The notes beneath the pieces are model-generated. The model was not told the origin of the DNA and did not search any database. It was given only the letters and a program-made list of their open reading frames with translations. Shown here piece by piece: positions 3,359 to 38,258 of a stretch of 38,890 bases of DNA. Numbering within the stretch: position 1 is the stretch's first letter; every line of letters starts with the position of its first letter. This DNA is from a virus. The translations under genes were made by a program, and so were the position numbers. The DNA is taken from the IMG/VR virus record IMGVR_UViG_3300031772_000108, positions 1-38,890 of that record; one strand, written 5' to 3'.

Positions 3359-4957
3359 TTAACTCCAGACCGGTATTATCATTTGCTCGGCCACAGTCAG
3401 TTTCTTAAACGCAACATCAGTACCGGGAACTAAATAATCATAAAGGGACTTATGGTTGTCTACCATAATATCTTGGTTCTCATAAAGAGTTCTTATATCA
3501 TCGAGCATCAGGTTGATTGCGTCTATCAGATATTGGGGAACACCGGCACCCCCGGCGGCATAAGTATCTAAACCTCCAATAGTCTGAGTGTTCACCCTGC
3601 CAAACCTGATGGTCATATTAAAATAGCCGTCACTGTTCTCAGTGGCTATCTTGCAGTTCCTCTGGATATATTGGACATTCCCAGTCCTTGTTGTGCCTTC
3701 ACTGGAGTCAGTTACCTTGATATAGTCAAAGATTTCCTGACCACAGTTCATCGGGACAACCGCCGAACCTCTTTCGGCATTTAGTTCATATCTCTCTATG
3801 ATAGCCGCAGCAATGAGAGTCCCCTGAGCACTAGAGGTTAGTCGCCGATAAGTAGTATGAGTCTTAGGGGCTAGGGCATAACTGGCAGCACTGGTAGCAC
3901 TACCAGAGTATGAACCCTGCTCAGGCATAGAGGCGACTACTTCTTTATTGGGATTGACAAAGCGGTTTCTTATATTCTTTTGGAAGAAGGTATGATAACT
4001 CGATACATACAGGCGATACTCATAATCGTAGGTCGTGCCAGAGGTTGTGGGCAAAAAGACGTGCATTGCCCCATCACTCCCTGCCCGCCTTTTACACTTA
4101 GTATAATTCAATAACTCCTGAATCTTATCATCCCTATTTTCGTTGACTGAAACAGAGAAGTAGTCCGCAGGGATGAATGAATCTATAATACTGTCATCAT
4201 ATCCTAACGGATAAGAGGCACTGACAGGTTCAAAGGTATAAGTAACGGCCGGATAATTTGTGTATGGGGATAATGTCTTGGCAGCAATCGCCGTTATCAA
4301 GGTCTTGAGGGTATTGGTGTCTGTGCTTTCCTGAGTATATGCCGATTCCGCTTTGTCCTCTCTCATCTGGTTGGGTAGACCGACAAGGTAAAGCCGGCAT
4401 TGTAGTAATGTCTCAGATGATATGAACTCCTGTCCCTCAACCTTTAATGGAGCTCGAGGCGAATATTCATCCCCGGTGTTCCCATCCATCTCCCAGGTAA
4501 CACCCCCGTCTGTCTGCGTAACCCCCAATGCCGTGCCCCAGGTTGGCTCTGTAGTGGCATGGGAAGTTCCCGCAATAGTGCACCTATACTGATAACCAGT
4601 AAGGGTCGTAGGGGTTACTACATTGCCCACAGCATAGGCAGTATTCTTAACCCACTTGGAACGAACAACGCCGGTATTGTAACCGTAATAGATAATGCAC
4701 TGATACTGTTCAAAATCAATACTAGGGGTTTGCAAATACAAAGCGCTTATAACGCCATCCGAATTGTCCAGCAAGACCTCGGCTGTGCCATTATCCTCTT
4801 CCTCGGTATGCTGGATTTGCATTACACGGTTTATATCGTAGCCGCGAGTAGTCTGGCCAGACCTGCTGAGGACTATTTTCCAAATAGAGTCATAGGCAGC
4901 ACCGGTAACACCATAACCTTTCTGCGCAGCCAATAAGGTACTTGTTAATGTTTGCAA
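3359..4957 (-). CDS. Tail protein with carbohydrate-binding-like insert
   Basis: A 532-residue protein with a TTG start at 4955-4957; AGGAG lies about 10 bases upstream. Residues about 103-158 contain the familiar phage module that begins WVKNTAYAVGNVVTP and ends TDGGVTWEM, a small beta domain often inserted in tail proteins and thought to bind sugars. The flanking parts (EEEDNGTAEVLLDNSDGVI near the N-terminus and a long mixed alpha/beta C-terminal half) resemble baseplate or hub proteins. It follows the adaptor-like gene by 9 bases. I infer a central tail or hub component; a catalytic role is not supported by any motif I can see. Confidence 0.6.
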   Translation of the reverse strand: MQTLTSTLLAAQKGYGVTGAAYDSIWKIVLSRSGQTTRGYDINRVMQIQHTEEEDNGTAEVLLDNSDGVISALYLQTPSIDFEQYQCIIYYGYNTGVVRSKWVKNTAYAVGNVVTPTTLTGYQYRCTIAGTSHATTEPTWGTALGVTQTDGGVTWEMDGNTGDEYSPRAPLKVEGQEFISSETLLQCRLYLVGLPNQMREDKAESAYTQESTDTNTLKTLITAIAAKTLSPYTNYPAVTYTFEPVSASYPLGYDDSIIDSFIPADYFSVSVNENRDDKIQELLNYTKCKRRAGSDGAMHVFLPTTSGTTYDYEYRLYVSSYHTFFQKNIRNRFVNPNKEVVASMPEQGSYSGSATSAASYALAPKTHTTYRRLTSSAQGTLIAAAIIERYELNAERGSAVVPMNCGQEIFDYIKVTDSSEGTTRTGNVQYIQRNCKIATENSDGYFNMTIRFGRVNTQTIGGLDTYAAGGAGVPQYLIDAINLMLDDIRTLYENQDIMVDNHKSLYDYLVPGTDVAFKKLTVAEQMIIPVWS

Positions 4958-14102: not shown

Positions 14103-17100
14103 TTATGGTTTCATTGCCGTGAGTTTCCTCTTTATCTCCATTTTGAGTTCATCTATTTCGGCTCTCTTAGCAGCCAACTGCCTACCAACTTTCTCAGCAG
14201 TTGTCATACCAGCCGATACATCATATTCCTCTATGGTCTGGGATACCGCACCAATAAGAACTAACCAGGCATCGAGTCTGGGATTACTCCGTCTGAATTC
14301 TTGCCGGGCTTTAGTCCTCGACATATCGGGAGAGCCAATAATTGCATCGTAAATCTGGTATAACTCAAAGACATCTTTAGGTGGAACCTTACTGAAGTCC
14401 TTGGGTTGCCACTGTCCTTTATCTACCATTGTCTTATAAAACTCTGGATGTTCCAAAAGATACCAGTCATCCTCAAACCAGTAAGTCTGCCCCGAAGGTT
14501 TGCCTTTGCCGACAATCGTGTAGTAACTAACATAGTCTTCTACTTGACTATCAGGTATATAGGCTTGGTAAGCATCCATCCTCAGCAAATCTTCGGGAGT
14601 TTTGTCACGTTTCTCTAACAGGATGTCATATTGCTCTGAGGGAACTTTATCGGGAATCTTTAATCCCAGAGTATTGGCAAAGTCAGGGTTGTTTAATAAG
14701 AACCTGTCCTGTCTATAACCTGTGGTTGGTAACTCATAGTAAGAGACATAGGGTTCAATCAGTCCAGTGTCAAGACCTTTTTGATACGCTTCCCGCCTGC
14801 GTCTGTCCATTCGGTAGGCATCATTGGCAGTAAGATAATCTGCCCGAGCCGTTCCAGTTGACGGTAAATCATCATATTCTGTATCCTGCTTGGCATACTT
14901 AACATCAATCCGCCAGATAGGTATTCTGGTCTCATCAACTGGTTTGAGTGCCTGGTCTCCCCAGATATTAACATCCATTCGCCAAGCGTTGTACTCGGGG
15001 TTATCTACCCGGTATAACATAACCTCCGCAGACGAACTGCCTACACCCGGAGCATCCTGCATCTTCATAAAGGTGACATGGCTATCAATAATCATCTGTG
15101 GAGTAGGCATCTCGTTTGTGCCAGCCTCAATCGCATCTACCCGTCTCATATCATCTACGAAGACAGGATTATCGGTCTTGAACTTCGCAATGACCTCTGC
15201 CCTTGCTTTATCATCAGCGATATAGTTTGGTGATTGGTCATTAGAGAACCCATCCAGTGTGTCATAAAGAGTTCGGTTCTTAACCTTGAGCTCGAGAGAG
15301 GCGGTAGGAGTATCTACCGTGCCTAATGGATTGCCACTCTTGTTTAACCACTCCACCAGTTTCGGGTTATTTGCCCGGAGGAGTTTATCTTCCCAACTAT
15401 TAGCACCCCACTTCGATACAATATCGTTCCTTTCAAAGTAGGATTTGGCAATATCGTCTGGGGGAAGGTATGGAGCCACCGCACTAATGGGTATGTCGTT
15501 CACCTTAATCAAATTCTGGGCTATATCGTAGGCTTTTTGGGTCATTACCTTAACCTTACCCGCCAAAGCCTGTCTAGCATTGTCTTCAGGATGTGATATA
15601 AGCCATTGTTCCCGAGGATTCTGGGAAAGTTCAGGATGATTTGCCAGAAAGTCTGCCTGCTTCTTTTTATCGGTTATTGACCAGTATTCGGTCAGTAAGG
15701 TGAACTGACTTTGTGAGATATTGCCCAAATAGGCTTGGTTATGCCTCTCATCGGCATCAAACGCCGTTAACGCCTTCTCATCACCAGAGTCCACTATCTT
15801 CTGCCTTTCCTGCCATATCTGATAGTAATTGGTAAAGGTCTTCCCCTTGGCAGGGTCGGCGTTCATAGATATTAGCGTTTGATTAGGGATAATACTTGAT
15901 TCATCAAGGCTCCGAGCGGTCTCGACAACAAGTTTTACCTTCGGGGGATAACCTTTCTTTTCTGTTAGGCTTGCTGGGTCTACTCCCTTGAACTGCGATG
16001 CAGTATCGGAGTAAAAATCTGCCCAGTCATACACCGGTTCAGTCATTCCATACCAGACATTATCGGAGTATTTGGGTAGTCCCAGTTTGGGAATGTTTTG
16101 TTTCCAGTCCCCAGTATAGGTTTGAACACCAAAACCTGTGAAACTCAGGATACTAGCGATAACCGTTGTGCCTGGTTGTTCCATAATGGACTCATAAATA
16201 TCCTGAATGGACATTGGTGCTATTCGGTCAGCCCACTGCTTCAGGTTTTTAACGTCTACCTTCTCGCCACCATAGGTCTTGCCGGTCATATATTCTAGGA
16301 AAGCAGCAGCGAGAGGTGCTTCCTTGCTTTTAAGGAAGTTTTCTGTGAGACTCAAAAAGTCAAGTGGGTAGTATGCGCCAGTAGTAGTAGATTTGCCCAT
16401 CGGTTTCTCACCAGTAACAGGTGCGGTCAAAATATATACTACTTTCGCATAGAATACGGCAAATTGCTGAACTCCACCCCAAGGGTCAATATGCAGGTTG
16501 CCGATACGGATTTTCATAAAGTCGGCACTTCTTGGGTCTGTTTCTACATCCCACCAACCAAGTTGTCTGCCAAGCATGACGAATCCGCCAACTACGCCAA
16601 CAAATAATGCCGCATCCTTCCATGCCTGTCTTCTGACATAGGGATTAGATGAAAAGAGATGTCTTGGCCCAATTATTCTACCGACCGCATATCTAGGAGC
16701 ATAAACAAAGGCAGAGATTGCAGGAGCGGCAGGAGATATTTTACCTAATGACGCTCTACCTGTCCAGTCCGCCAACTTTGTAGCCTCGGCATCCATCGCT
16801 CCCATTATGTCAAAAGTTTCGCCTTCTTTAAGTGTGAGTTCCCCTGAAGCATACAATTCTGCCTTGCGCAACATTAGTTTATAGAAACTCTCATAGATGT
16901 TCCAGGTGTCAGAGTTACAACCAGAGACAAAGCCACGGTTAGACCATTTGATTGTAGGTATCTTTGAAGTCAATCTAGGAATTGTTCTATCTTTAGTCAG
17001 ATAACCGAACTCCTCAACTCCTTTCCATTGTGCCGTTCCCTTGGGCAAATCTATCGGTCGCAGGAAGTCTCTACCTTGTTTAACTTGCAACGCATCATAA

Positions 17101-19883
17101 ATCGCATATAGTGGACTTCTTGTAATCCGTAACCATTGAGCCTCGGCACTCTTCTGACTGAATGTTCCTTTCCAAGCATCAACATTAGATAAGGCAAACG
17201 CCACTGGATGGCCAGGAACAAGTGGCATTATCTGTCTCCAGTATGACATATCAACAGATGATTTCATTGCTCTTAAAAAGTTACCAATATCTACTGGACC
17301 CCACGCCATCTCTTTGAGAACTCTGATAACTGCATCTCTGGCGGGTGCGGGCCATAAAGGAACCTGCCTGATAGCCTCTGTAATAGGTGCTTCATAGGGA
17401 ATAATAGGCGTTGGTTCTCTAAATACTGTTGGCTGATATAGAATATCGGTTGATAGACCGCGTAGGTAATCGGCAGTTGCCTGGTCAACTGGTATCGGTT
17501 CCCGTTCTGTTTCGTGATATATACCCTCGACAATATCCTCAAGGGGCTTTTTCTCTTCCGCTATCTTCTCTATGGCTTTCAGAACTTTAGGTTGATTGCC
17601 AAAGACTCTTTGTAATCGAGTGAAAGCAGACCCACCTTTGATGCCAGGTATTCTCGGTATTGCTTTGCCGAGAAGTGCATTTGTCAAAGCCGTAAGGGTT
17701 GAAGCCATCTCTAATGGGTCGTCCTTAAGAGATTCATATACCTTTGTAAATAAAACTGCCCTCATGTGATTGGTCAGGTCATCAAGATAATCAGTCCTCA
17801 TAACAGGCAATTCACCAGATAAGGTTTCCTTGATTGCCTGATTCATTGCCTCTTCGGGTGGCATACCTTTTTCAACAATGAGTTCCTGTGTTCTACCTTT
17901 TAGAAGTTCTACCCTGCCCGAAAGAGTTTCTCGCCTCAATTCCCTAGTCAATTCCCAAGCATTTAAGGTGGTAGGATTCTCTACATATTGACCGAATAAG
18001 TCCAGTGTGCGAGTAACTTGCGCGGGAGTCAACATCCGTTCGCCGGTCGGACTTAGAGTAACATCCCCTGGTTTCGGTTCGGGGAGTGTCTTTAGCGGTT
18101 TCTGAACGAATTGCGTTTTAATCTCGGATTCTAATGCCTTAATTTGCTGGCGTTCCGCCCTTATCGCCATCACCCTATCGGCAATCTGGTCGGTAGTCAT
18201 ACCCCACTTGTCAGCAAGTTCATCAAGAACGGCATCCACTGGAACTTTGTTATAAGTCTTTAACCCTTTTTGCGCATAGCGACTCCAATCAGTATAAGGG
18301 GCTATCATTTGAGCCTGTTTGACAGTAAAATAACTGGGGAAACCTTGCTCTTTAATATCAATAAAAGAGGTTAAGTCAACACTACGTTTTGACTGACTTA
18401 GTTTATAAGTTCCGTCTGATTGTTTAACTTTGCGAGTAACAGTTATCTCAGTTCGCCATTGTGCCACCGGGTCAGTCTCATGTGTGGCTTTTAACCCTTC
18501 AATCTGTGCCTGCGCTTCATAAGCCGCCTTTGTTTCAGGTGGAGCGACTTCGGCTGCCTGTCTTGCCTGTTGGAGTTTGAGTTGTTCCTCCATCGATACT
18601 TGCGTGGGAATACCTTTACCTTGTGGGAAGACTTCTTTAGGAGCAACCACTTCTGGTATCATACTGGGTTGTAGTCCAGCTTCAGGCATCCCGGGTGCGG
18701 CCTTGGGGATTGTAACCTCTGGGATAACAGGTGCCTTGACTTTTGGTGGGGTTACTTTAGTAATCGCGGTCTTTTCGGTAGGGGTCAAAGACTTCCACCC
18801 CTTAGAGGCAACCTTCCCCTCAAGTCCAACAGATTGAACTAGGGAAACCTTATCGGCGATAGACATTGCTGCCCAAGATGCCTCATTGATAGGTAGTCCC
18901 CCGAAAACCATAGCCCCAGTTTGAGTACCAAGGGGAACTAAAGACGGAGCAACTTGACTTACTACTGATAACGCATTTTGTTCAACTGCTTGTGCCCCCG
19001 CCTCAGTTAAAGTAAATCCCGCCTTCGTGGTATTAAATAATGTCTTGATTGTCTCTTTGATAAGAAACTTCGGGGATAGATTTTGAACAGCAGAACGAAT
19101 GAAGTTCTCCTTCACATCTACAGGTATCGGTTCTGGTAAATTGGCACTCTTTTCCCAAGAATCAAGGTTTCTGCGAACTGACCACTCCATAGTAGCATTG
19201 TAGACTTCCTGAACAGTCGCATATCCCGTTAATCCTATCGCTACTACACCAGCAATGGTTTCCGCAGAGATAGGTATTCCAGCGACATTGAATAGTGGTT
19301 TATTTACCGCATCAATAACCGCCTGTCCAATCTGTTCCCACTTTTCTATTGGCCCTTTCTTAGTAGAAACAATCCTTATGAGGTCTTCACCTTTAGAACC
19401 ACGAAAACGCTCAAAATCTTCATTGGCCTTTAGTAAAGTGGCTTGTTGTTCTTTAGGAATGGCAAGAAAATCACCATACCCCATACCTTCCTTCGAGCGC
19501 AATTTAGCACCTTCATAAGACCACGCCAATTCAGGTAGAGGGTATTTCTCTATGCCTTTTAATACCCTTGTGGGCTGAGTAGGAGCAAATGCCCAGTTCA
19601 TGTCGGAATCTGTAAGACCAAGGTTCTTTAATAGTGTCTCAGTGTCCGAGTTTCTACCCTTTGCTATTATATCTTCAATAAAGGCATCAGGGTTTTCATT
19701 TGCCACCTGAGTTACATGTTCCATAGTTATACCCGGCACATCGGGATAGATATTCTTTAGAAAAACAGGAGTCCCCATATTAGTTGCGGGAATCTTCCCA
19801 TACGATACCCCTATCTTTGGGGGAGGAGGTGGCGGTTCTATTTTAGTTACTGGAGCAGGGACTTCTAATAATTTTACAGCCAT
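14103..19883 (-). CDS. Giant virion-associated protein, large-polyvalent-protein type
   Basis: A 1926-residue protein, 15% of the genome, directly downstream of the portal region. It has a proline run at 15-21, a hydrophobic stretch near 205-230, and long linkers. Residues about 900-1262 form a conserved block found in giant phage proteins (large polyvalent protein family): RTRSP-type helix, GRASLGKISPAAP, FVYAPRYAVGRI, VRRQAWKDAALFVG, then DPRSADFMKIRIGNLHIDPW and FGVQTYTG. Within it, about 1085-1105 is a likely membrane-active segment. The C-terminal 450 residues hold imperfect repeats (YVSYYELPTTGYRQDRFLL, with NPDF or HPEF). I see no clear lysozyme or protease site. By position it may be an ejected inner-core protein that helps DNA cross the envelope; this is inference. 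Confidence 0.65.
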   Translation of the reverse strand: MAVKLLEVPAPVTKIEPPPPPPKIGVSYGKIPATNMGTPVFLKNIYPDVPGITMEHVTQVANENPDAFIEDIIAKGRNSDTETLLKNLGLTDSDMNWAFAPTQPTRVLKGIEKYPLPELAWSYEGAKLRSKEGMGYGDFLAIPKEQQATLLKANEDFERFRGSKGEDLIRIVSTKKGPIEKWEQIGQAVIDAVNKPLFNVAGIPISAETIAGVVAIGLTGYATVQEVYNATMEWSVRRNLDSWEKSANLPEPIPVDVKENFIRSAVQNLSPKFLIKETIKTLFNTTKAGFTLTEAGAQAVEQNALSVVSQVAPSLVPLGTQTGAMVFGGLPINEASWAAMSIADKVSLVQSVGLEGKVASKGWKSLTPTEKTAITKVTPPKVKAPVIPEVTIPKAAPGMPEAGLQPSMIPEVVAPKEVFPQGKGIPTQVSMEEQLKLQQARQAAEVAPPETKAAYEAQAQIEGLKATHETDPVAQWRTEITVTRKVKQSDGTYKLSQSKRSVDLTSFIDIKEQGFPSYFTVKQAQMIAPYTDWSRYAQKGLKTYNKVPVDAVLDELADKWGMTTDQIADRVMAIRAERQQIKALESEIKTQFVQKPLKTLPEPKPGDVTLSPTGERMLTPAQVTRTLDLFGQYVENPTTLNAWELTRELRRETLSGRVELLKGRTQELIVEKGMPPEEAMNQAIKETLSGELPVMRTDYLDDLTNHMRAVLFTKVYESLKDDPLEMASTLTALTNALLGKAIPRIPGIKGGSAFTRLQRVFGNQPKVLKAIEKIAEEKKPLEDIVEGIYHETEREPIPVDQATADYLRGLSTDILYQPTVFREPTPIIPYEAPITEAIRQVPLWPAPARDAVIRVLKEMAWGPVDIGNFLRAMKSSVDMSYWRQIMPLVPGHPVAFALSNVDAWKGTFSQKSAEAQWLRITRSPLYAIYDALQVKQGRDFLRPIDLPKGTAQWKGVEEFGYLTKDRTIPRLTSKIPTIKWSNRGFVSGCNSDTWNIYESFYKLMLRKAELYASGELTLKEGETFDIMGAMDAEATKLADWTGRASLGKISPAAPAISAFVYAPRYAVGRIIGPRHLFSSNPYVRRQAWKDAALFVGVVGGFVMLGRQLGWWDVETDPRSADFMKIRIGNLHIDPWGGVQQFAVFYAKVVYILTAPVTGEKPMGKSTTTGAYYPLDFLSLTENFLKSKEAPLAAAFLEYMTGKTYGGEKVDVKNLKQWADRIAPMSIQDIYESIMEQPGTTVIASILSFTGFGVQTYTGDWKQNIPKLGLPKYSDNVWYGMTEPVYDWADFYSDTASQFKGVDPASLTEKKGYPPKVKLVVETARSLDESSIIPNQTLISMNADPAKGKTFTNYYQIWQERQKIVDSGDEKALTAFDADERHNQAYLGNISQSQFTLLTEYWSITDKKKQADFLANHPELSQNPREQWLISHPEDNARQALAGKVKVMTQKAYDIAQNLIKVNDIPISAVAPYLPPDDIAKSYFERNDIVSKWGANSWEDKLLRANNPKLVEWLNKSGNPLGTVDTPTASLELKVKNRTLYDTLDGFSNDQSPNYIADDKARAEVIAKFKTDNPVFVDDMRRVDAIEAGTNEMPTPQMIIDSHVTFMKMQDAPGVGSSSAEVMLYRVDNPEYNAWRMDVNIWGDQALKPVDETRIPIWRIDVKYAKQDTEYDDLPSTGTARADYLTANDAYRMDRRRREAYQKGLDTGLIEPYVSYYELPTTGYRQDRFLLNNPDFANTLGLKIPDKVPSEQYDILLEKRDKTPEDLLRMDAYQAYIPDSQVEDYVSYYTIVGKGKPSGQTYWFEDDWYLLEHPEFYKTMVDKGQWQPKDFSKVPPKDVFELYQIYDAIIGSPDMSRTKARQEFRRSNPRLDAWLVLIGAVSQTIEEYDVSAGMTTAEKVGRQLAAKRAEIDELKMEIKRKLTAMKP

Positions 19884-20037: not shown

Positions 20038-21815
20038 CAGATTGTCGCCTCCGGTTGTATTTCACCAGCGCCGGGTGATTCCATTTTCCTTGTCGTTCTA
20101 ACTTGACTTGTCTCTGGAGCGGCAGGGCTTAACTGCAAAGCCTGTGCCTTTTGTTCTGGCGATGCTTGCGGAACTTCCACACCGGTTATCTTGGTTACCT
20201 CTGCTGGTGCAATCCCCTGAAGAGACTGCCCCATTTCAATGAGTAAAACCTTAGCCTCATCCGTCCGCCCCTGTTTATCAAGAGCCTGAGCCATTTGGAA
20301 GAGTCCTAATGCCCGACTGACCTTTTGAGCCGTCTGGATTAAATACTTCTCGTCAATATCGTCATAGTCCCTGTACCTCAGGATATTTTTACGGATACTC
20401 CTATCGTCCATCCAGCTCCGAGCCATAGTAGCCAACCCATAAGCAGCCGCCGTTTCCTCTGGGAGCGCGGTTAAATATTCAAAGTCAACAGTATAATCGC
20501 CAGCAAGGTCGGTGGCCGTATAAGTTCTTTTCTTGCCAGTTCTCCCTATGTTGGCAGACATATCAAATGCCTTGAACTGCCATATAGCCTCACGGCAGAG
20601 CATCCTCTTGAATCGTTCGCCAGTCTTGATTCTTGGAGTAAATACCTGTCTCGAAGCACCAGCAAGGGTGGCAATAGCAACCTGAGATAACTGAAACTGG
20701 AGATTACCCCAGTCTATATTGCTGATTGACCCTCTTTGAAGAGCTCCGTCTAGCATTGCCTGAAAGAATCTGCCTGATGCCTGAATGTCTGGTCCCTCTA
20801 TCTTCTGTAAACCTTCTGTGGTTTCCAAGGCCAGAATACGGCCAAGTCTATAAATCGGTTCGTCAGGTAGTTTCTTACCCGACACACTTTTGAGAACTTG
20901 CGGAGGAGCCAGTGATAACATGTTCATCGTTTCGAGAATTGACGCAATCCTGTTTAGTTCAGGATATAATTCTCTGTTTGCCGAGAAAATAGAATCGCCT
21001 TGCATTCTCAGGGCTCTTGAAGAAGTATCCAAGAATGTGCCTTGCTGACATAACTGGATGACAAAAGGTGGATGAAGTAACTTATTTGGTATCGCCTCGT
21101 AGAATTTGCCGTCAAGGAATATGACTTCCTCAAGATTATCCCAGCAGTCCCATCGTGTTATAGACTCTCCTGTTGGTCTATAATCTGGATATTCTTCACG
21201 GCACATTGTCTTATCAAGAGTATCCCAGAAGGCGACTCTTGATAATCCCCTTCTCCCTACACTATAGACACACTTCCGCATATCAACCGGCAGAATATCT
21301 ACATCAAAACCATTCCTATCTTGCGACAGTAATATCCTTGCTCCCGCTCTACCCCTGATAGAGATTTGCTCCCAGATATAGGTATCAAGGTCCGGCATAA
21401 GGACTTGATTGAGGTTCTCATTGGCGAGATACATCAGGTCATACCACCAATCCTCAATGACCGCGGTTTCATGCCCATCCAGTTCCTTGCCGTTTCTCTG
21501 ACCGTTAATCTCAATGAGTTCCTTTGACTCATTAAGAACCGCCATCACTCTTTCGCCAAAGACCCTGGCATTGTTCATAGTGACGCTGATAACATCATCA
21601 AGGGTTTCACCTTTAGCATCCTTGAGAACATAGGGTTCCTGAGTCCAGAGTTTCTCATCCTCATCCATGCGTTGAAAGATATGCTTGCCCCATTCCATGT
21701 TGACTGAGTTAATCCAACGCATAGTCTCATCATCGGAAATAGGAGGCATTTGTGCCGATAATGAGGTTGATTGCGGAACTGCCTTTCTGCCCTTGAGGTC
21801 AGCGATTTTTGTCAT
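20037..21815 (-). CDS. Portal protein
   Basis: A 592-residue protein located directly after the large terminase, which it overlaps by one base (TAATG). That position, the length, and the composition (helical, many Trp and Arg, with a beta wing region around WDCWDNLEEVIFLDGKFYEA and a long helical segment near 300-420) are those of portal proteins of podovirus or siphovirus type. The dodecameric portal forms the DNA channel and docks the terminase. The last 70 residues are low-complexity and rich in Ala, Gln and Pro, as in portals with a flexible C-terminus. No frameshift or fusion is visible. Confidence 0.75.
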   Translation of the reverse strand: MTKIADLKGRKAVPQSTSLSAQMPPISDDETMRWINSVNMEWGKHIFQRMDEDEKLWTQEPYVLKDAKGETLDDVISVTMNNARVFGERVMAVLNESKELIEINGQRNGKELDGHETAVIEDWWYDLMYLANENLNQVLMPDLDTYIWEQISIRGRAGARILLSQDRNGFDVDILPVDMRKCVYSVGRRGLSRVAFWDTLDKTMCREEYPDYRPTGESITRWDCWDNLEEVIFLDGKFYEAIPNKLLHPPFVIQLCQQGTFLDTSSRALRMQGDSIFSANRELYPELNRIASILETMNMLSLAPPQVLKSVSGKKLPDEPIYRLGRILALETTEGLQKIEGPDIQASGRFFQAMLDGALQRGSISNIDWGNLQFQLSQVAIATLAGASRQVFTPRIKTGERFKRMLCREAIWQFKAFDMSANIGRTGKKRTYTATDLAGDYTVDFEYLTALPEETAAAYGLATMARSWMDDRSIRKNILRYRDYDDIDEKYLIQTAQKVSRALGLFQMAQALDKQGRTDEAKVLLIEMGQSLQGIAPAEVTKITGVEVPQASPEQKAQALQLSPAAPETSQVRTTRKMESPGAGEIQPEATI

Positions 21816-23146
21816 TAAACTCTCCTGCCGACTGGTGCTTTATCAGTATCACCTGGAACTGCTGATAGTTGCCTGAACTGTGTCATCATACCCCTTTCGG
21901 CGTCCATGAAATGCCAAATACTCTTATCCTCGATATTCTCAGTCGGATTGTAATTACTGTCCAGTTCCCAGGAATAAGATTGTTTCTCAGCTAAGTAGTT
22001 CTTGCAAGTCCTGAAAACCTTGTTCTTATGCAACTTATCATAACCGTAGACCCTCAGTATCCCCGATTTCACCCCACCATCTAACGGTTTCTCTATCCTC
22101 CACCCTGCCTGGGTATAATCACCCCGCCAACCATCCTCAGTGGGCGACCCACCATATCTTGTGGCAATCCTTTCACCCTTAGACAACTCAATCCAGTTAG
22201 TAACGTGTTCGTAGGTGGACAATCTGCCCATCGCATAATCGCGGTAGGTGTAGAATATCCCTGTAGATGGGTCGTAAGCCTTCCACAAGGCCACAGTATT
22301 CACCGGCCCGAAGTCATGCCCTACATACCTCGGCCAGTGATTAGGTAAATCAAACGGTTCAATAACATCATTCACCGAATCAAAGGCGTCATAAATTAAC
22401 CCGGCGGGTTTAGAGAAACGACCCCGGTGGAACATATCGAACTTCCAGTCGGGCATTTTACTCTTCATCCTCTGGTATTCGTCCAGAGGAAATGCCGGGT
22501 TATCAATAGAGTCAAACTGGATTACATCAATATCGGGATTACCCTTCAACCACTCATCATAAATATCAGTCTTGAGCCATCCCAGGCAGTAGAGAGTAGT
22601 GGTCATCAGGATTCTGGCCTTATTGATTAGAGTTCTACGTTCTACAGCTTCCCAGGTCTCTCTCTTAAACTGCTTCTGGCCGCACTCATCCAGCCACACA
22701 CCTTTGACAGTGGCCGACTCCATAGACTCAGGATTCTGTGCCGAGCCAATGAATATCTTGGTCTCTATATCCGAATCGGGAAACATTACATAATCGGTCT
22801 TTTTCTTGATGGTCTTCTTGGTATGAAAGGTAAATATCTTCTTGTTATCGTTATAAGTCCCGTAGTGGAACAGGTCTTGAAAAACATAAAGGAACTCAGG
22901 TAGCAACTTCCTATCAAGCAAGGGAAATGTTGAAGTACCAATCAGATAATCCCCGGGTCCGCAGGTTCTTATTTCCCTGTCTAGCCAGTGAGGGCCGAAG
23001 GAAGTCTTGCCCCCCTGGGAACCCGCCTGCATATCTATTATCCGTTTCTTTGAGAGCCACGTCCTGGTCTGACCTGAATGGAAATTAACCTTCAACTTCC
23101 CATCCGATGTTATCTCACGAAACGGTCTAACCGCTACTTGAACCAT
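21815..23146 (-). CDS. terL: Terminase large subunit
   Basis: A 443-residue packaging motor. ATPase part: Walker A AGSQGGKTS at residues 41-49 (Lys47, Thr48), Walker B GVWLDE at 149-154 (Asp153, Glu154), and the coupling motif MTTTLY at 181-186. Nuclease part: YVGHDFGPVNT with Asp278 as first metal ligand. The length is typical for this subunit. The start overlaps the end of the 80-residue gene by 20 bases. It cuts concatemers and pumps DNA through the portal encoded next. The contig is circular in assembly, which fits headful or cohesive-end packaging but does not decide between them. Confidence 0.9.
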   Translation of the reverse strand: MVQVAVRPFREITSDGKLKVNFHSGQTRTWLSKKRIIDMQAGSQGGKTSFGPHWLDREIRTCGPGDYLIGTSTFPLLDRKLLPEFLYVFQDLFHYGTYNDNKKIFTFHTKKTIKKKTDYVMFPDSDIETKIFIGSAQNPESMESATVKGVWLDECGQKQFKRETWEAVERRTLINKARILMTTTLYCLGWLKTDIYDEWLKGNPDIDVIQFDSIDNPAFPLDEYQRMKSKMPDWKFDMFHRGRFSKPAGLIYDAFDSVNDVIEPFDLPNHWPRYVGHDFGPVNTVALWKAYDPSTGIFYTYRDYAMGRLSTYEHVTNWIELSKGERIATRYGGSPTEDGWRGDYTQAGWRIEKPLDGGVKSGILRVYGYDKLHKNKVFRTCKNYLAEKQSYSWELDSNYNPTENIEDKSIWHFMDAERGMMTQFRQLSAVPGDTDKAPVGRRV

Positions 23147-23806: not shown

Positions 23807-23921
23807 ATCGTCTAGTCACCCTCACAAGTGGAGTCCATCGCCAACCCTGAAAGTATATTCTATCTTGTAAGAACCTACTTCCTGCTGAATGAGACCACCT
23901 ACCGAAGTTAATTGCTATCAT
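23775..23921 (-). CDS. 48-aa basic hypothetical protein
   Basis: ATG at 23919-23921 overlaps the TGA of the DUF1353-like gene (ATGA). The product starts MIAINFGRWSHSAGSRFLQD and is rich in Arg and Trp. Its end overlaps the 78-residue gene by 32 bases in another frame, which is rather long for this genome, so one of the two starts may be wrong. Function unknown. Confidence 0.45.
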   Translation of the reverse strand: MIAINFGRWSHSAGSRFLQDRIYFQGWRWTPLVRVTRRYVAGKCQISC

Positions 23922-24406
23922 TTTGTGCCTCCTTTATAAGAAAAGTAACCAAACCATCTAACCGCCTCATAAAAGGCAAAAGCTATTAAGCCCCCAGTCC
24001 TGTAAGACTTGAACGCCACCAGCATCGCCTCGTAGAATATCAGGTCGCTCATGTGCCGACTATACAGGTGGTGTTGATAAAGAAAATCATGCAGAACCGA
24101 TGGCTTGGAATACTTCGCCCACTTCGGCAGCGCCAGGTATAATATCGCCGGGAATAAGAATACTACGCTCATCCACCAAGGCAAAAAGGTTGAAATGATT
24201 ATGTAAACCAGTAGTAGTATCAGACTAGACAGCCCCCACAGCTCGATAGAGGCGAAGTCCGTCTCAAATCCCCGGTGAACCGATATAATTTCCTTGGAAT
24301 ACTTGCTCCCAACATGATACCGGAACGACCTCGTCAGTCTCCAAAGTCGGCCATTCGGTTCAGGTGTTACATGAAGTTCACTCGTAAAACTGCTGTGCCG
24401 TTTCAT
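23918..24406 (-). CDS. DUF1353-like protein with two inserted membrane helices
   Basis: A 162-residue protein carrying the scattered DUF1353 signature: GFETDFAS at 46-53, VLHDFLY at 104-110 (His106, Asp107), YSRHMSD at 115-121, and EAVRWFG at 147-153. The normal family is soluble and about 100-120 residues; here residues 57-96 insert two strongly hydrophobic helices (LSSLILLLVYIIIS and VVFLFPAILYLAL). DUF1353 genes often stand near lysis or packaging genes, but the activity of the family is not established. With the membrane insert and no visible endolysin, a role in lysis or envelope passage is possible. It is coupled on both sides through ATGA overlaps. Confidence 0.65.
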   Translation of the reverse strand: MKRHSSFTSELHVTPEPNGRLWRLTRSFRYHVGSKYSKEIISVHRGFETDFASIELWGLSSLILLLVYIIISTFLPWWMSVVFLFPAILYLALPKWAKYSKPSVLHDFLYQHHLYSRHMSDLIFYEAMLVAFKSYRTGGLIAFAFYEAVRWFGYFSYKGGTK

Positions 24407-24576: not shown

Positions 24577-24965
24577 GTTGCCCTGTTCCTTATCATTTTC
24601 CCGATTAGAAGCCATTGTTGCGTAAACTGTTCGTCATCTAACTTTGCCAAATCCGTTTCTGTTATCAGAAAACCAAACTCGCCAAGTTTCCGTTCCGGTT
24701 GATGATACTTGGGGTGATTAGGATGAACTGAAGAGGGTTGTTGTTTCCCCGGTTTCACTTTCCTAGGTTTACCACAATACCGCACATGAACGGAATATCG
24801 GTGTCCGTTCTGCGTCTCAAATACTCCACACTTCTCACATTTCCAGACCTTTTTCTCTGTCACTCCGTCTATCCTTGCTTTGCAGAAGTAGCACCTTTCC
24901 CCCTCACTGCCATCACTTTCTACCTGTCTGCCACATGATTTGCACTCTGTTAAATACAATTTCAC
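24573..24965 (-). CDS. 130-aa double zinc-finger protein
   Basis: GTG start at 24963-24965 overlapping the upstream stop as GTGA. Residues 8-29 hold CKSC and CYFC, one ribbon; residues 43-64 hold CEKC, then His and Cys (VHVRYC), a second CCHC-like site. A basic linker follows (GKPRKVKPGKQQP). The C-terminal part (FLITETDLAKLDDEQFTQQW) is helical. Two metal sites and a basic linker suggest DNA or RNA binding. It lies in the small-gene chain between the terminase subunits. Confidence 0.6.
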   Translation of the reverse strand: MKLYLTECKSCGRQVESDGSEGERCYFCKARIDGVTEKKVWKCEKCGVFETQNGHRYSVHVRYCGKPRKVKPGKQQPSSVHPNHPKYHQPERKLGEFGFLITETDLAKLDDEQFTQQWLLIGKMIRNRAT

Positions 24966-25057
24966 CTCTTGCTATTCCTCCATATCTCTATCATCCACAG
25001 CGACCAGGGGATTACGAATATCAGGCATATTATCAAGGGGATTACCCATTTCATCAT
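24962..25057 (-). CDS. 31-aa single-pass membrane peptide
   Basis: I choose the ATG at 25055-25057, with AGGGG five bases upstream, over a longer frame opening at 25252 whose first 65 residues look noncoding. The product is one hydrophobic helix (VIPLIICLIFVIPWSLWMI) with a basic end (WRNSKR). Small membrane peptides of this kind can be holins, lysis regulators or superinfection-exclusion factors. Nothing decides between these here. Confidence 0.55.
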   Translation of the reverse strand: MMKWVIPLIICLIFVIPWSLWMIEIWRNSKR

Positions 25058-25513: not shown

Positions 25514-26101
25514 TTATTTAGGCTCGGATTCCTTAATTCTCTTAATTGTCTCACTTAATGGACTGCTGTCCTCGGCTATTTCATGGCTTTCGCCCTCTAT
25601 GATTTGACCCGGTGGGACTCCGGCCAGGTTATACTCGACATGAGTGATAGTGATTTCTCTAGTCTCGTTTATATCTATCCTAGTTCTGTCACGCCTGCCC
25701 CAGCGGTCAGGATGCCGGCGCTCGAGGTACGTGGCAGCCGCCAGCCAGTCGCCCCCGGTCTCAGTAATCTCTATTGATGAGCCTTCGGGTCCGGTCTTTG
25801 TCACTCGTTTGCGTTCCCCGGGCATGGCCCCAGCTAGAAGGCGCTCCGCTATTTTGGCCTCTTGCTCGGCTTCTGCCTTTTTCGTGCCTTCCAGAAAGTC
25901 TGCAAACATTCCCCCGCCGTTATTTACCTCTTCCTCTCCTAATTTCAGCCAAGTATGATAGGTTTGGTCGCTAACATCAACGGCCGCGCAAGCGACCGAC
26001 AGGTAGTTCCCCTCAGCGATATACTTACAGATTTTCTCTTGGAGTTCCGGGGTTAGTTTGGTGGGTCTCCCAATTTTAGGTTTTATCATTTCAGTGGTCA
26101 T
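25514..26101 (-). CDS. terS: Terminase small subunit
   Basis: A 195-residue protein, first gene of the late operon. Residues 11-60 (GRPTKLTPELQEKICKYIAE, then SVACAAVDVSDQTYHTWLKL) form the helix-turn-helix DNA-binding domain usual in small terminases. A helical oligomerisation part follows (FADFLEGTKKAEAEQEAKIA), and the C-terminus is acidic (SETIKRIKESEPK). It recognises the packaging site on phage DNA and loads the large subunit. AAGGTGA lies before the ATG and a good promoter just upstream (26118-26146). Unusually, the large subunit is not next but lies 2.4 kb downstream, behind about ten small genes. Confidence 0.85.
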   Translation of the reverse strand: MTTEMIKPKIGRPTKLTPELQEKICKYIAEGNYLSVACAAVDVSDQTYHTWLKLGEEEVNNGGGMFADFLEGTKKAEAEQEAKIAERLLAGAMPGERKRVTKTGPEGSSIEITETGGDWLAAATYLERRHPDRWGRRDRTRIDINETREITITHVEYNLAGVPPGQIIEGESHEIAEDSSPLSETIKRIKESEPK

Positions 26102-26117
26102 ATAGTCACCTTATAAC

Positions 26118-26146
26118 ATTATGTTAAATTAGTCAAGAGTAGTCAA
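26118..26146 (-). promoter_or_regulatory. Late-operon promoter before terS
   Basis: On the minus strand TTGACT (26141-26146), a 17-base spacer and CATAAT (26118-26123) form a sigma70-like promoter 17 bases before the small-terminase start. The -35 element is itself part of a tandem TCAAGAGT repeat, so a repeat-binding protein would block or recruit polymerase here. Confidence 0.6.
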
Positions 26147-26257
26147 GAGTTACGTTGTCTTTCTCTTTATTTAATTTACTTTGTAGTTCTCTTTAGATAG
26201 AGTTTGTCAAGACCTTGTCAAGAGTAGTCTTGACCTTATCAAGAGTTACTCAAGACC
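26131..26257. repeat. TCAAGA iteron-like repeat cluster
   Basis: Six direct TCAAGA copies start at 26133, 26143, 26207, 26218, 26239 and 26250, and one inverted copy (TCTTGA) is at 26228. Four are extended to TCAAGAGT and two to TCAAGACC. The first two form a perfect 10-bp tandem (AGTCAAGAGT twice). Spacings of 10-11 and 21 bases keep most copies on one face of the helix. This looks like iterons of a replication origin or an operator array. Confidence 0.7.
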
Positions 26258-26295
26258 TACTGGGGTTTATATCTAATATCAGGTAAAGTAGCCCA

Positions 26296-26347
26296 AAAGT
26301 ATCACAGACTGCGACACCGACAAGCCTTGATACTTTGTTGATACTTT
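26296..26347. promoter_or_regulatory. TGATACTTT operator-like set
   Basis: TGATACTTT occurs at 26328-26336 and 26339-26347, exactly 11 bases apart, and its inverted form AAAGTATCA at 26296-26304. A helical-turn spacing plus an inverted copy is typical of a dimeric regulator's binding sites. It lies between the TCAAGA cluster and the plus-strand promoter at 26376. Confidence 0.5.
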
Positions 26348-26375
26348 CTTCCCATCGCTTCCTATTATCTTTCTC

Positions 26376-26404
26376 TTGACTTTCTCTTTACGCTATGGTA
26401 GAGT
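26376..26404 (+). promoter_or_regulatory. Probable promoter of the first plus-strand gene
   Basis: TTGACT (26376-26381), 17-base spacer, TAGAGT (26399-26404). The -10 is weak, so activation or a different -10 is possible. It precedes the 61-residue gene, whose GGAGG site starts about ten bases after it. Confidence 0.4.
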
Positions 26405-26425
26405 TACTGAAGGAGGTAATTTAAT

Positions 26426-26611
26426 ATGAGTAAAGAGTTTGAGGCACTACAAAAGTTAGCCGAACACGACCGGGTGAAAGAGAAGACCCGGCAGAGGGAA
26501 GCATATCGCTATGCCCGGTCTCTCGGGTTCCCCTATGCGATGGCACGGAGACTACAGGGTTACAAGAAAGAGAAAATCTTAGAACTATCTAAAGAGTTAA
26601 AGAGTAGTTAG
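26426..26611 (+). CDS. 61-aa basic helical protein
   Basis: First gene on the plus strand, with a strong GGAGG site. The product starts MSKEFEALQKLAEHDRVKEK and continues with RQREAYRYARSLGFPYAMAR, then KKEKILELSK. It is highly charged, all helical, with a possible helix-turn-helix around RSLGFPYAMARRLQGY, so a small DNA-binding regulator of the adjacent repeat-rich region is plausible. A GC-rich hairpin follows 15 bases after the stop. Family unknown to me. Confidence 0.6.
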   Translation: MSKEFEALQKLAEHDRVKEKTRQREAYRYARSLGFPYAMARRLQGYKKEKILELSKELKSS

Positions 26612-26625
26612 CCCCTAAAATACTG

Positions 26626-26660
26626 AGAGCCCGGGGGAGAGCCACCAGCCCCCGGGCTCT
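26626..26660 (+). terminator. GC-rich hairpin after the first plus-strand gene
   Basis: A perfect 12-bp stem (AGAGCCCGGGGG against CCCCCGGGCTCT) with an 11-base loop, 15 bases after the stop codon. Only TAAA follows, without a T-run, so it may be an incomplete terminator or a transcript-end stabiliser. Confidence 0.55.
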
Positions 26661-26862
26661 TAAAGGAGGTTAGAAAGGAGACAAAATTAACCTTACTTAT
26701 TAGTCAAGCACATAAAACACCTTTTGTCAAGTATGCTTTAGACGTGCGTATAAAAAAAGATGTTTAAAAATATTTGTCCGCACCCCAGATATAAAATAGG
26801 GAAAAACAGTAAAAGGCAATTGTTAAGTTTTGACACTTTAGTATCATCTTGCTTTCGGGGTA

Positions 26863-26891
26863 TTGACAAGTACCAGTAATAGGTATATGCT
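26863..26891 (+). promoter_or_regulatory. Plus-strand accessory promoter (twin of the early promoter)
   Basis: TTGACA (26863-26868), 17-base spacer, TATGCT (26886-26891). From -35 to just past -10 it equals the minus-strand promoter at 37790-37818 except for three spacer bases, including CCAGTAATAGGTATATGC. The shared spacer is more than polymerase needs and suggests a common regulator. Confidence 0.75.
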
Positions 26892-26952
26892 AGAGGCATA
26901 AACTCATAAGCCCTGAGCTGGAGAGCCAGGCAGTCAAAAAGGAAGGGACAAA

Positions 26953-27219
26953 ATGAAAGTCCGGAACATGACCAGCAACAGAAGCGGAAGGGAAGTAGCC
27001 AACCAATTCATTATCTATGGCGACCATGAAACCACATTCCAGAGCTACAACTCAGTGATTGCTACTCGGCGAGATGGTAAGGTTTATCTCGACAAGGAAA
27101 TGTGGGACTACAGCAAGACGACCGGGAAATACCGCAACCAGTTTCTAGGTGAGTCTAGGAAGGAAACCGAGGCCAAGATAAAGAACGGCACCTATATTGT
27201 TACTGACCTGAACAGCTAA
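26953..27219 (+). CDS. Conserved 88-aa phage protein
   Basis: First gene behind the plus-strand promoter. The product has the conserved motif order MTSNRSGREVANQFII, TFQSYNSVIA, DKEMWDYSKTTGKYRNQFLG and ETEAKIKNGTY of a small protein common in phages and mobile elements of many bacteria. It is predicted alpha/beta; no enzymatic activity is known. Full length for the family. Being first in an early accessory operon, it may act on the host early in infection, but this is a guess. Confidence 0.65.
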   Translation: MKVRNMTSNRSGREVANQFIIYGDHETTFQSYNSVIATRRDGKVYLDKEMWDYSKTTGKYRNQFLGESRKETEAKIKNGTYIVTDLNS

Positions 27220-27232
27220 ACGCCCTGGCCAC

Positions 27233-27260
27233 TTGCCCGGGACCCAACCAGCCCGGGCAA
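27233..27260 (+). terminator. GC-rich hairpin after the 88-aa gene
   Basis: A perfect 9-bp stem (TTGCCCGGG against CCCGGGCAA) with a 10-base loop, 13 bases after the stop. No T-run follows. Its stem core and the CCAGCCC at its loop edge match the hairpin at 26626-26660, so both are probably of the same kind. Confidence 0.5.
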
Positions 27261-27297
27261 ACGCAAGGGATTAGTAAATAAAAGGATGGTGAAGGAA

Positions 27298-27432
27298 ATG
27301 AAACATACAGCTAAAGAGTGCCGAGCTAATATAGAAATAACTACTCCCACAAGTGCTGTATGTCGGATATGTGGGCAGTGGTATAAACGAGTTAGAAGAT
27401 GGGGCAAGGATGGATGGCAGAGAATATATTGA
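27298..27432 (+). CDS. 44-aa zinc-knuckle-like protein
   Basis: ATG at 27298 with GGTGAAGG upstream (an in-frame ATG at 27286 would add four residues). The product starts MKHTAKECRANIEITTPTSA and has one CRIC pair followed by basic and aromatic residues (GQWYKRVRRWGKDGW). The first Cys (residue 8) could give a third ligand. Small metal-binding nucleic-acid protein is the likely type. No named family. Confidence 0.55.
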   Translation: MKHTAKECRANIEITTPTSAVCRICGQWYKRVRRWGKDGWQRIY

Positions 27433-27471
27433 GCCTGAATAACATATAAGGAGGAAAGGAGGGGAGAACCC

Positions 27472-27720
27472 ATACTAGTCACTAATGATTGGATAAGAGA
27501 GCATCTTCACGACCTTGACGGCTGGGTGCCGACAATAGAGGTCATCCGCCCCGGCAGCAAGCAGACCATCACCATTAAAAGTGCGGAAGCCGAGAGGGAA
27601 GTCATCAAAATTATGAGAGAGGATAGAAAAAGGAAAGGAGGTCATTATTATTGCGACAAGTTCAGCGCTCATAGCGGCCACTGTGCCAACTTCAAAGAGA
27701 GAACAAAGGAGGTGAAATAG
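27472..27720 (+). CDS. Hypothetical protein with no ordinary start codon
   Basis: The frame is open from 27439 to the stop at 27718-27720, and a strong AGGAGGGG site (27457-27464) points to the codon at 27472, which is ATA. The first ordinary start in frame is GTG 27526, which lacks a ribosome-binding site and would lose residues that look coding (VTNDWIREHLHDLDGW). The product carries a beta segment (TIEVIRPGSKQTITI), a basic helix, and two Cys (YYCDKFSAHSGHCANF) with His between. Possible zinc site. Either ATA is used, or a base error or mutation removed the start. Confidence 0.5.
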   Translation: MLVTNDWIREHLHDLDGWVPTIEVIRPGSKQTITIKSAEAEREVIKIMREDRKRKGGHYYCDKFSAHSGHCANFKERTKEVK

Positions 27721-27721
27721 T

Positions 27722-27874
27722 ATGGTTACAGTCATCAGGATAACCGGCAGGGCCAAGGATGTCTTCCCAAAGATTAAGGAACTAGCGGATTGGGGAGGGA
27801 AGCTAACTATTGACGAGCTGGTCAGGTTAGGACTCAGGTCATACCAAGAAAGAGAACGACAAAAAGGAAGGTAA
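27722..27874 (+). CDS. 50-aa hypothetical protein
   Basis: ATG at 27722 with AAAGGAGGTGA about 6 bases before it. The product starts MVTVIRITGRAKDVFPKIKE and continues GKLTIDELVRLGLRSYQERE; the C-terminal half has the look of a ribbon-helix-helix or small helical DNA-binding protein (TIDELVRLGL). Basic end. Could be a small regulator; the length is short for a full MetJ/Arc fold but possible. Confidence 0.55.
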   Translation: MVTVIRITGRAKDVFPKIKELADWGGKLTIDELVRLGLRSYQERERQKGR

Positions 27875-27880
27875 ACAAAT

Positions 27881-28096
27881 ATGAAATGTCCACTACAAAT
27901 AATTGTTGGGTTGACTCGCGGTGATACACTTAATCCAGCGCCGATGGATTGTATCAAAGAGGACTGTGTCTGGTGGTGTGAGACTCAGCAACGCTGCGCC
28001 ATAGCACAACTAGCCACCGACTCAACAATCATCAGCTCGGAGTTGCACCAACTGGTCGATAAGATGCCCCACGAATTACAATTCAGGAGGTTGTAA
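27881..28096 (+). CDS. 71-aa Cys-rich protein
   Basis: Starts MKCPLQIIVGLTRGDTLNPA, then DCIKEDCVWWCETQQRCAIA: five Cys in one third of the protein with a WWC core. This Cys pattern is typical of small phage and mobile-element proteins that bind zinc or an iron-sulfur cluster; which metal cannot be told here. A helical C-terminus follows (SSELHQLVDKMPHELQF). It lies 6 bases after the 50-residue gene, with AAGGTAA upstream. Confidence 0.6.
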   Translation: MKCPLQIIVGLTRGDTLNPAPMDCIKEDCVWWCETQQRCAIAQLATDSTIISSELHQLVDKMPHELQFRRL

Positions 28097-28097
28097 T

Positions 28098-37970: not shown

Positions 37971-38258
37971 TTATCCCCGGTTGCCGTTTTTAGCCTTGAG
38001 ATAAGAATATAGTTCTGCATTTACCCGGGTGTTCTCTGTAACAGCTGTATTATAGGCACCAATAACATTTGTTAAGCGGTCTTCCATAAATACCCTGTCC
38101 TCTCGGCTTTTCTTTTCATATTGCATAGATAGATTCAGGACTTCAGCCGCATGTCTATTGCACTCATGTCGGTATATCCAAAAGAGTATGATTGCGAAGA
38201 CAGCTCCAATGCCACCGACTCCGGCTATCCATTGCAGGAAACTAAGCGATTCAAACAT
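37971..38258 (-). CDS. Small membrane protein, holin candidate
   Basis: A 95-residue protein with one membrane helix at 8-29 (LQWIAGVGGIGAVFAIILFW) followed by a basic, then helical coiled-coil part (EVLNLSMQYEKKSREDRVFM, then NTAVTENTRVNAELY). The plan (short N-out part, one helix, long charged tail) matches BhlA/UviB-type or other one-helix holins, and it is the last late gene, as lysis genes often are. No endolysin stands beside it. Spanin-like or other envelope roles are equally open. Confidence 0.5.
   Translation of the reverse strand: MFESLSFLQWIAGVGGIGAVFAIILFWIYRHECNRHAAEVLNLSMQYEKKSREDRVFMEDRLTNVIGAYNTAVTENTRVNAELYSYLKAKNGNRG

Follow-up and report, generated by a model that had tools for sequence, protein, structure and literature searches.

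The window, that is, the whole 38,890-nucleotide stretch of DNA analysed here, from an uncultured phage, encodes a 162-residue DUF1353 protein that is predicted to be a membrane-anchored phospholipase A2 (PLA2). It is a variant, with two inserted hydrophobic helices, of a known enzyme family, and we infer a part in lysis for it. The gene comprises 162 codons at 23918-24406 on the minus strand; a preliminary description, made from the sequence alone, had placed it correctly and given no strand. Its start codon, ATG, shares bases with the stop of the preceding gene (ATGA), its stop codon does so with the next start, and the gene lies inside a tightly packed, operon-like run leading from the terminase small subunit, upstream (25514-26101, minus strand; Sf6_terminase, 9.9e-5, below the curated cut-off), to the terminase large subunit (TerL), downstream (21815-23146, minus strand; PHROG 2, 1.2e-17). 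Between the small terminase gene and the rightward genes there is a region of about 2 kb (26102-28097) with no convincing ORF and a reversed GC skew. The viral record has a 114-base terminal repeat and is therefore probably complete.

Family membership and phospholipase A2 homology

The protein matched Pfam PF07087 in two stretches (profile positions 1-30 and 31-77) with a total of 51.5 bits (E 8e-14), the whole-protein score being above the gathering cut-off of 22.5 bits. The domain is not unbroken, being split by 31 residues, and continuity is not part of the family definition. The family signature is intact, as had been described earlier, with GFETDFAS (residues 46-53, 24248-24271, minus strand, from the alignments) directly ahead of the insert, HDFLY at residues 106-110, YSRHMSD at 115-121 and EAVRWFG at 147-153 (23948-23968, minus strand), which in HMMER alignments corresponds to the last helix of bacterial PLA2s (AVKIFG, AVRKFG).

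The DUF1353 protein TtaP of the typhoid toxin islet was experimentally shown to be a PLA2, with H70, D71 and D85 as catalytic residues and with activity abolished by the D85A substitution (PMC11525133). In the window protein, H106 and D107 (24086-24091, minus strand), the catalytic His and its neighbouring Asp, match H70-D71 of TtaP (PMC11525133), and D121 (24044-24046, minus strand), the second member of the catalytic dyad, corresponds to D85, with the same spacing in both proteins. H106 and D107 are each conserved in 109/109 sequences of our homologue alignment (A5), and D121 in 108/109. As these residues lie outside the sequence stretches used to retrieve the 109 homologues, their conservation is not forced by the search. 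The two proteins belong to the same Pfam family and both lack an overt secretion signal. TtaP, however, is a bacterial protein of 125 residues, cotranscribed with cdtB and described in a paper that mentions no membrane insert (PMC11525133), whereas the window protein is phage-borne and carries a two-helix insert.

An hmmsearch of 177,635 PDB sequences with the family profile gave four matches, all PLA2 (best E 0.0034), the aligned region taking in the HD helix, the Asp of the second helix and the final AVRxFG helix. A profile built without the window protein gave three matches, again all PLA2 (E 0.3-0.97), and a single-sequence search with the window protein gave no match. Using Foldseek, the only PDB matches above 0.2 probability for an insert-free relative (model pLDDT 90.1) were two bacterial PLA2s (0.85 and 0.66), and the top probability for the window model was also a PLA2 (0.72); the E-values of these matches are weak (0.67-1.7) and the matches cover the helical core only. 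Among the enzymes concerned, the Group XIV secreted PLA2s of Streptomyces violaceoruber (1FAZ/1LWB) and Tuber borchii (4AUP) and the bacterial 7YGK and 8K1W align with the window protein in the HD..Y helix, the second-helix Asp and the C-terminal AV(R/K)xFG. The window protein differs from them in its N-terminal half, in its membrane insert and in the absence of a signal peptide, there being no N-terminal hydrophobic segment; it also has no cysteine and thus none of the disulfides of Group XIV. Membership of the PLA2 family is very probable, and the window copy is likely to be an active PLA2. In BFVD, Foldseek also matched the window model with A0A481Z3V6, an uncharacterised protein of Pithovirus LCPAC001 (E 5e-3, probability 1.00), which, on the models compared, may represent a DUF1353-like protein from beyond the phages.

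Hundreds of phage records contain a DUF1353 protein, which is usually annotated as hypothetical or as a 'tail assembly chaperone', the latter being the label of PHROG 1158 (E 5.5e-20 for the window protein) that is repeated in many RefSeq phage records. It is extremely improbable that the window protein is such a chaperone, given its PLA2 homology and catalytic residues and the location of its gene between the terminases, in a window where no tape measure protein was recognised; phage SNW-1, moreover, has a separate annotated tail assembly chaperone near its DUF1353 gene. Because of the PLA2 homology, the label is probably wrong for the DUF1353 family and likely to be a widespread misannotation.

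The inserted hairpin and its predicted topology

The residues splitting the domain form a 31-residue insert without Lys or Arg (residues 55-85, 24152-24244, minus strand; ELWGLSSLILLLVYIIISTFLPWWMSVVFLF). Its extent was established by alignment to the four nearest relatives, from viral contigs (41-43% identity over the best segments), all of which lack it, and the gap in the Pfam match falls at the same place. Of 126 parsed homologues, 123 have 20-22 residues between TDFAS and HD, so the insert is beyond the usual variation; its GC3 (0.55) is like that of the flanking parts of the gene (0.52 and 0.57). Together with about eight native residues it makes up a hydrophobic two-helix hairpin (residues 56-93, 24128-24241, minus strand), with a hydropathy of 2.22 over residues 56-74 and 1.89 over 75-93. 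AlphaFold2, run with the 109-sequence alignment (pLDDT 83.5, pTM 0.77), placed the helices at 57-74 and 77-92. The preliminary description had reported two membrane helices splitting the family over 40 residues; the helices are supported by hydropathy and by the model, but the insertion itself is shorter, the second helix being native sequence from P86 onwards. The core was modelled with high confidence (blocks of 95-96 around the HD helix) and the hairpin with lower certainty (69-73), because close homologues that could inform it are absent.

The hairpin is inserted beside the active site, in the loop that connects the conserved GFxTDFAS segment to the catalytic HD helix. With no Lys or Arg in the insert and a net charge of +3 over residues 94-106, the positive-inside rule indicates that the soluble parts are probably cytoplasmic. 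We consider anchoring of the protein in the membrane highly likely. Alternatively, as it sits next to the active site, the insert could have spoiled the enzyme and left a membrane protein without enzymatic function, such as a holin; pairs of helices of similar length are found in holins. This seems very unlikely: the two helices are present, yet on an enzyme scaffold whose catalytic and motif residues are all intact after long divergence and whose core around the HD helix is modelled with confidence.

A survey of homologues for the same insert, proposed in the preliminary description, found no copy of this exact insert among the homologues searched, but at locus L129:5850-6380 it did reveal a second two-helix insert, which adds about 46 residues at this very site. 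Since a long distance (4.57 substitutions per site) separates this protein from that of the window on the family tree, where its closest neighbours lack a comparable insert, the two inserts were probably gained separately, as far as the tree can tell. Helices that lock the protein to the membrane, arising twice independently, would suggest selection for membrane attachment. The L129 gene sits just after one for a 42-residue protein in which a lipobox-like LVGC can be read. Other family members also carry hydrophobic additions. The insert of L171 is shorter and less hydrophobic, and L186:822-1198, a DUF1353 gene seemingly split by a frameshift, encodes a run of hydrophobic residues where the window protein has its insert. 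C-terminal hydrophobic helices were found in L145:3667-4200, L157:696-1304 and L195:2782-3630, and these are a possible alternative route to membrane attachment. In the aligned members from cultured phages (alignment A4), the loop has no insert.

Gene neighbourhoods and the proposed role in lysis

We surveyed 25 cultured phages, hand-picked for diversity and with Sf11 and Bas80 counted once, and in nine of them (FNU1, NrS-3, Bjorn, Sf11, phiRTG5, Carin1, DMCA, ctjLE16 and Seuss) an annotated lysis gene lies at most three genes from DUF1353. The gene order is endolysins-holin-Rz-DUF1353 in Sf11 and Bas80 and lysozyme-DUF1353 in Bjorn, while phiRTG5 has an endolysin and a holin near DUF1353, and in Seuss DUF1353 is followed by holins, an endolysin and spanins. 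These five phages share the DUF1353 family with the window but, in contrast to it, their endolysins, holins or spanins can be recognised. No lysis gene is annotated as close as this in the other 16, several of which have DUF1353 near the terminase, like the window. At 87 environmental loci, which are not fully independent, small hydrophobic proteins account for 28 of 124 immediate same-strand neighbours versus 15 of 208 genes at distance 5-8 (Fisher p 8e-5). In Pfam searches of 140 near and 140 far environmental neighbours, lysis families were slightly more numerous among the near ones (lysozyme, M15 peptidases and GTA holin) than among the far ones (a single holin), the numbers being too small for a decision, and in PHROG and Pfam scans of 140 such neighbours lysis genes were not dominant among the families listed.

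The preliminary description had regarded the DUF1353 protein as a lysis candidate in a genome without an endolysin. PLA2 homology and the position in or beside lysis cassettes in nine of the 25 phages agree with a part in lysis, which we consider reasonably probable; what had been missed is that the enzyme is of a lipid-cutting kind and, acting on the membrane, would be no replacement for an endolysin. Starting from the family, catalytic residues, hairpin and gene context found here, we lean, on balance, towards a scheme in which a DUF1353-type PLA2, expressed from the terminase part of the late gene run, would be held at the membrane by the inserted two-helix hairpin. Both soluble parts would be cytoplasmic, with the active site toward the inner leaflet, if the topology is as predicted. 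Host phospholipids would be cut at sn-2; the membrane, weakened by the lysophospholipids and fatty acids so formed, would give way more easily to lysis and phage release, in which a separate holin-like protein would take part alongside the PLA2.

Two other hydrophobic proteins may be relevant to this last step. A 31-aa peptide encoded upstream in the same gene run (24962-25057, minus strand) is, by its hydropathy and position, a possible holin-like or accessory lysis peptide. A 95-aa protein near the end of the late run (37971-38258, minus strand), with one N-terminal membrane helix and a homologue in the sister phage G003, is a holin-like candidate whose best PHROG matches are weak and include holins (E 0.07 and 0.21). 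The preliminary description had named these two and the DUF1353 protein as the only lysis candidates, and all three are indeed hydrophobic, but one hydrophobic segment each is also present in a 1926-aa protein and, marginally, in a 489-aa protein.

PLA2 domains can also serve at entry, as in parvovirus VP1, where the domain is carried in the virion. A virion-borne DUF1353 phospholipase could likewise open the membrane during DNA delivery: DUF1353 lies among tail fibre or baseplate genes in SNW-1, FLC6 and the locus L003, it adjoins terminase and portal genes in the window, L021 and PhiPA3, and the copy of Salmonella phage Arash is annotated as 'structural protein'. We nevertheless regard such an entry function as distinctly unlikely, as a membrane-spanning hairpin would be odd in a virion protein and lysis genes are close in nine of the 25 phages, three of them with tight cassettes (Bjorn, Sf11 and phiRTG5). 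Somewhat less unlikely, though still improbable, is a remodelling of host membranes or lipids during infection (takeover, lipid scavenging or superinfection exclusion) with no part in lysis. It would fit with large phages whose DUF1353 genes sit amid metabolism genes (by thymidine kinase and DNA polymerase in CP30A, near dihydrofolate reductase in PhiPA3), with TtaP not being overtly lytic and with G003 living without DUF1353, but it leaves aside the small membrane-protein neighbours, the lysis cassettes of many phages and the late position of the gene in the window.

The proposed lysis function resembles that of spanins and disruptins, which disrupt the outer membrane, in being a membrane-breaking step. 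The window protein differs from these in being enzymatic, with no lipobox and no coiled coil, and in not being a cationic peptide; an N-terminal helix, as a further spanin feature, was also not found in it. Strict replacement of spanins by DUF1353 is unsupported because Sf11, Bas80 and Seuss carry both. Among the checked spanin-less phages of Table 10 in PMC6139136, Lu11 has DUF1353. None of the Helicobacter phages KHP30, KHP40 and 1961P appeared in the 60 hits listed for a Helicobacter query.

The missing endolysin and the significance of putative DUF1353 phospholipases

No peptidoglycan hydrolase was detected in the window by Pfam searches of the ORFs examined, PHROG searches of ten or PDB profile searches of the 1926-aa and 532-aa proteins, which bears out the earlier statement that no lysozyme, amidase or peptidase is visible. 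The DUF1353 protein itself had no Pfam or PDB match to such a domain. The two proteins singled out beforehand as places where a hydrolase fold might hide, at 14103-19883 (1926 aa) and 3359-4957 (532 aa), yielded none: a profile from the four-genome alignment of the former had no match in the PDB, and that of the latter gave chance matches only, the best to a chitin-binding domain (E 0.81). The 1926-aa protein is encoded between portal and scaffold, has sister versions of 2243-2398 aa and no significant Pfam match, and is possibly an ejected internal virion protein.

Sister phages carrying the same structural genes were found among viral contigs. One of them, G003, apparently complete at 41.4 kb with a terminal repeat of 127 bases, has a TerL 85% and a portal 82% identical to those of the window, and neither DUF1353 nor a recognisable hydrolase was found in the proteins scanned (all but one of 501 aa, with 25 of 38 Pfam families listed). 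In a second sister, G010 (38.7 kb), there is a DUF1353 gene without the insert, directly after a gene for a 67-residue protein resembling a two-helix holin, and again no recognisable peptidoglycan hydrolase. As the sister without DUF1353 and the one with it both lack a recognisable endolysin, its absence appears to be a trait of the lineage not tied to the DUF1353 gene, and, on these genomes, the DUF1353 protein cannot explain it. Either the hydrolase of this lineage is unrecognised or its host needs none. It is doubtful that the lineage lyses without any peptidoglycan hydrolase, with the anchored PLA2 as main envelope-breaker of the window phage, in a host without ordinary peptidoglycan or one for which phospholipid attack is enough.

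Other differences were seen among the sisters. The structural proteins portal, scaffold and capsid of G010 (L024, L025) share 70-78% identity with their window counterparts, compared with just 28% for TerL, so its terminase has been exchanged. The late gene run of G003 includes a radical SAM protein and a DUF483-like protein (L015:11266-12387), and right after a tail gene this phage, which lacks DUF1353, encodes a lipoprotein-like protein with an LTSC lipobox (L015:13218-13754).

A host without peptidoglycan, for example, Dehalococcoidia, was considered. DUF1353 phages among the matches listed for three queries of the phage collection have diderm or unstated hosts, which weakly speaks against such a host; the pattern is suggestive only because the queries are mutually related and only listed matches are covered. 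At about 24% identity, the window TerL resembles that of Paenibacillus phages, and it also has matches in many phages of Gram-negative hosts. Against cultured phages, the capsid had one match and the portal and tail proteins none, a search for prophages found no relative of portal or TerL in genome contigs, and no tRNA was found in the window.

No spanin was found in 13% of the phage genomes analysed in a 2018 survey (PMC6139136), and the existence of other outer-membrane disruptors in spanin-less phages was still described as an open question in 2026 (PMC12819732). If DUF1353 proteins are lysis phospholipases, a widespread annotation would be corrected and a candidate disruptor for spanin-less phages would be offered. 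They would then be a class of enzymatic membrane disruptors in phages that has so far gone unrecognised, in addition to spanins and disruptins, and the phage-type muramidase TtsA of the typhoid islet, together with TtaP, might be a co-opted phage lysis pair.
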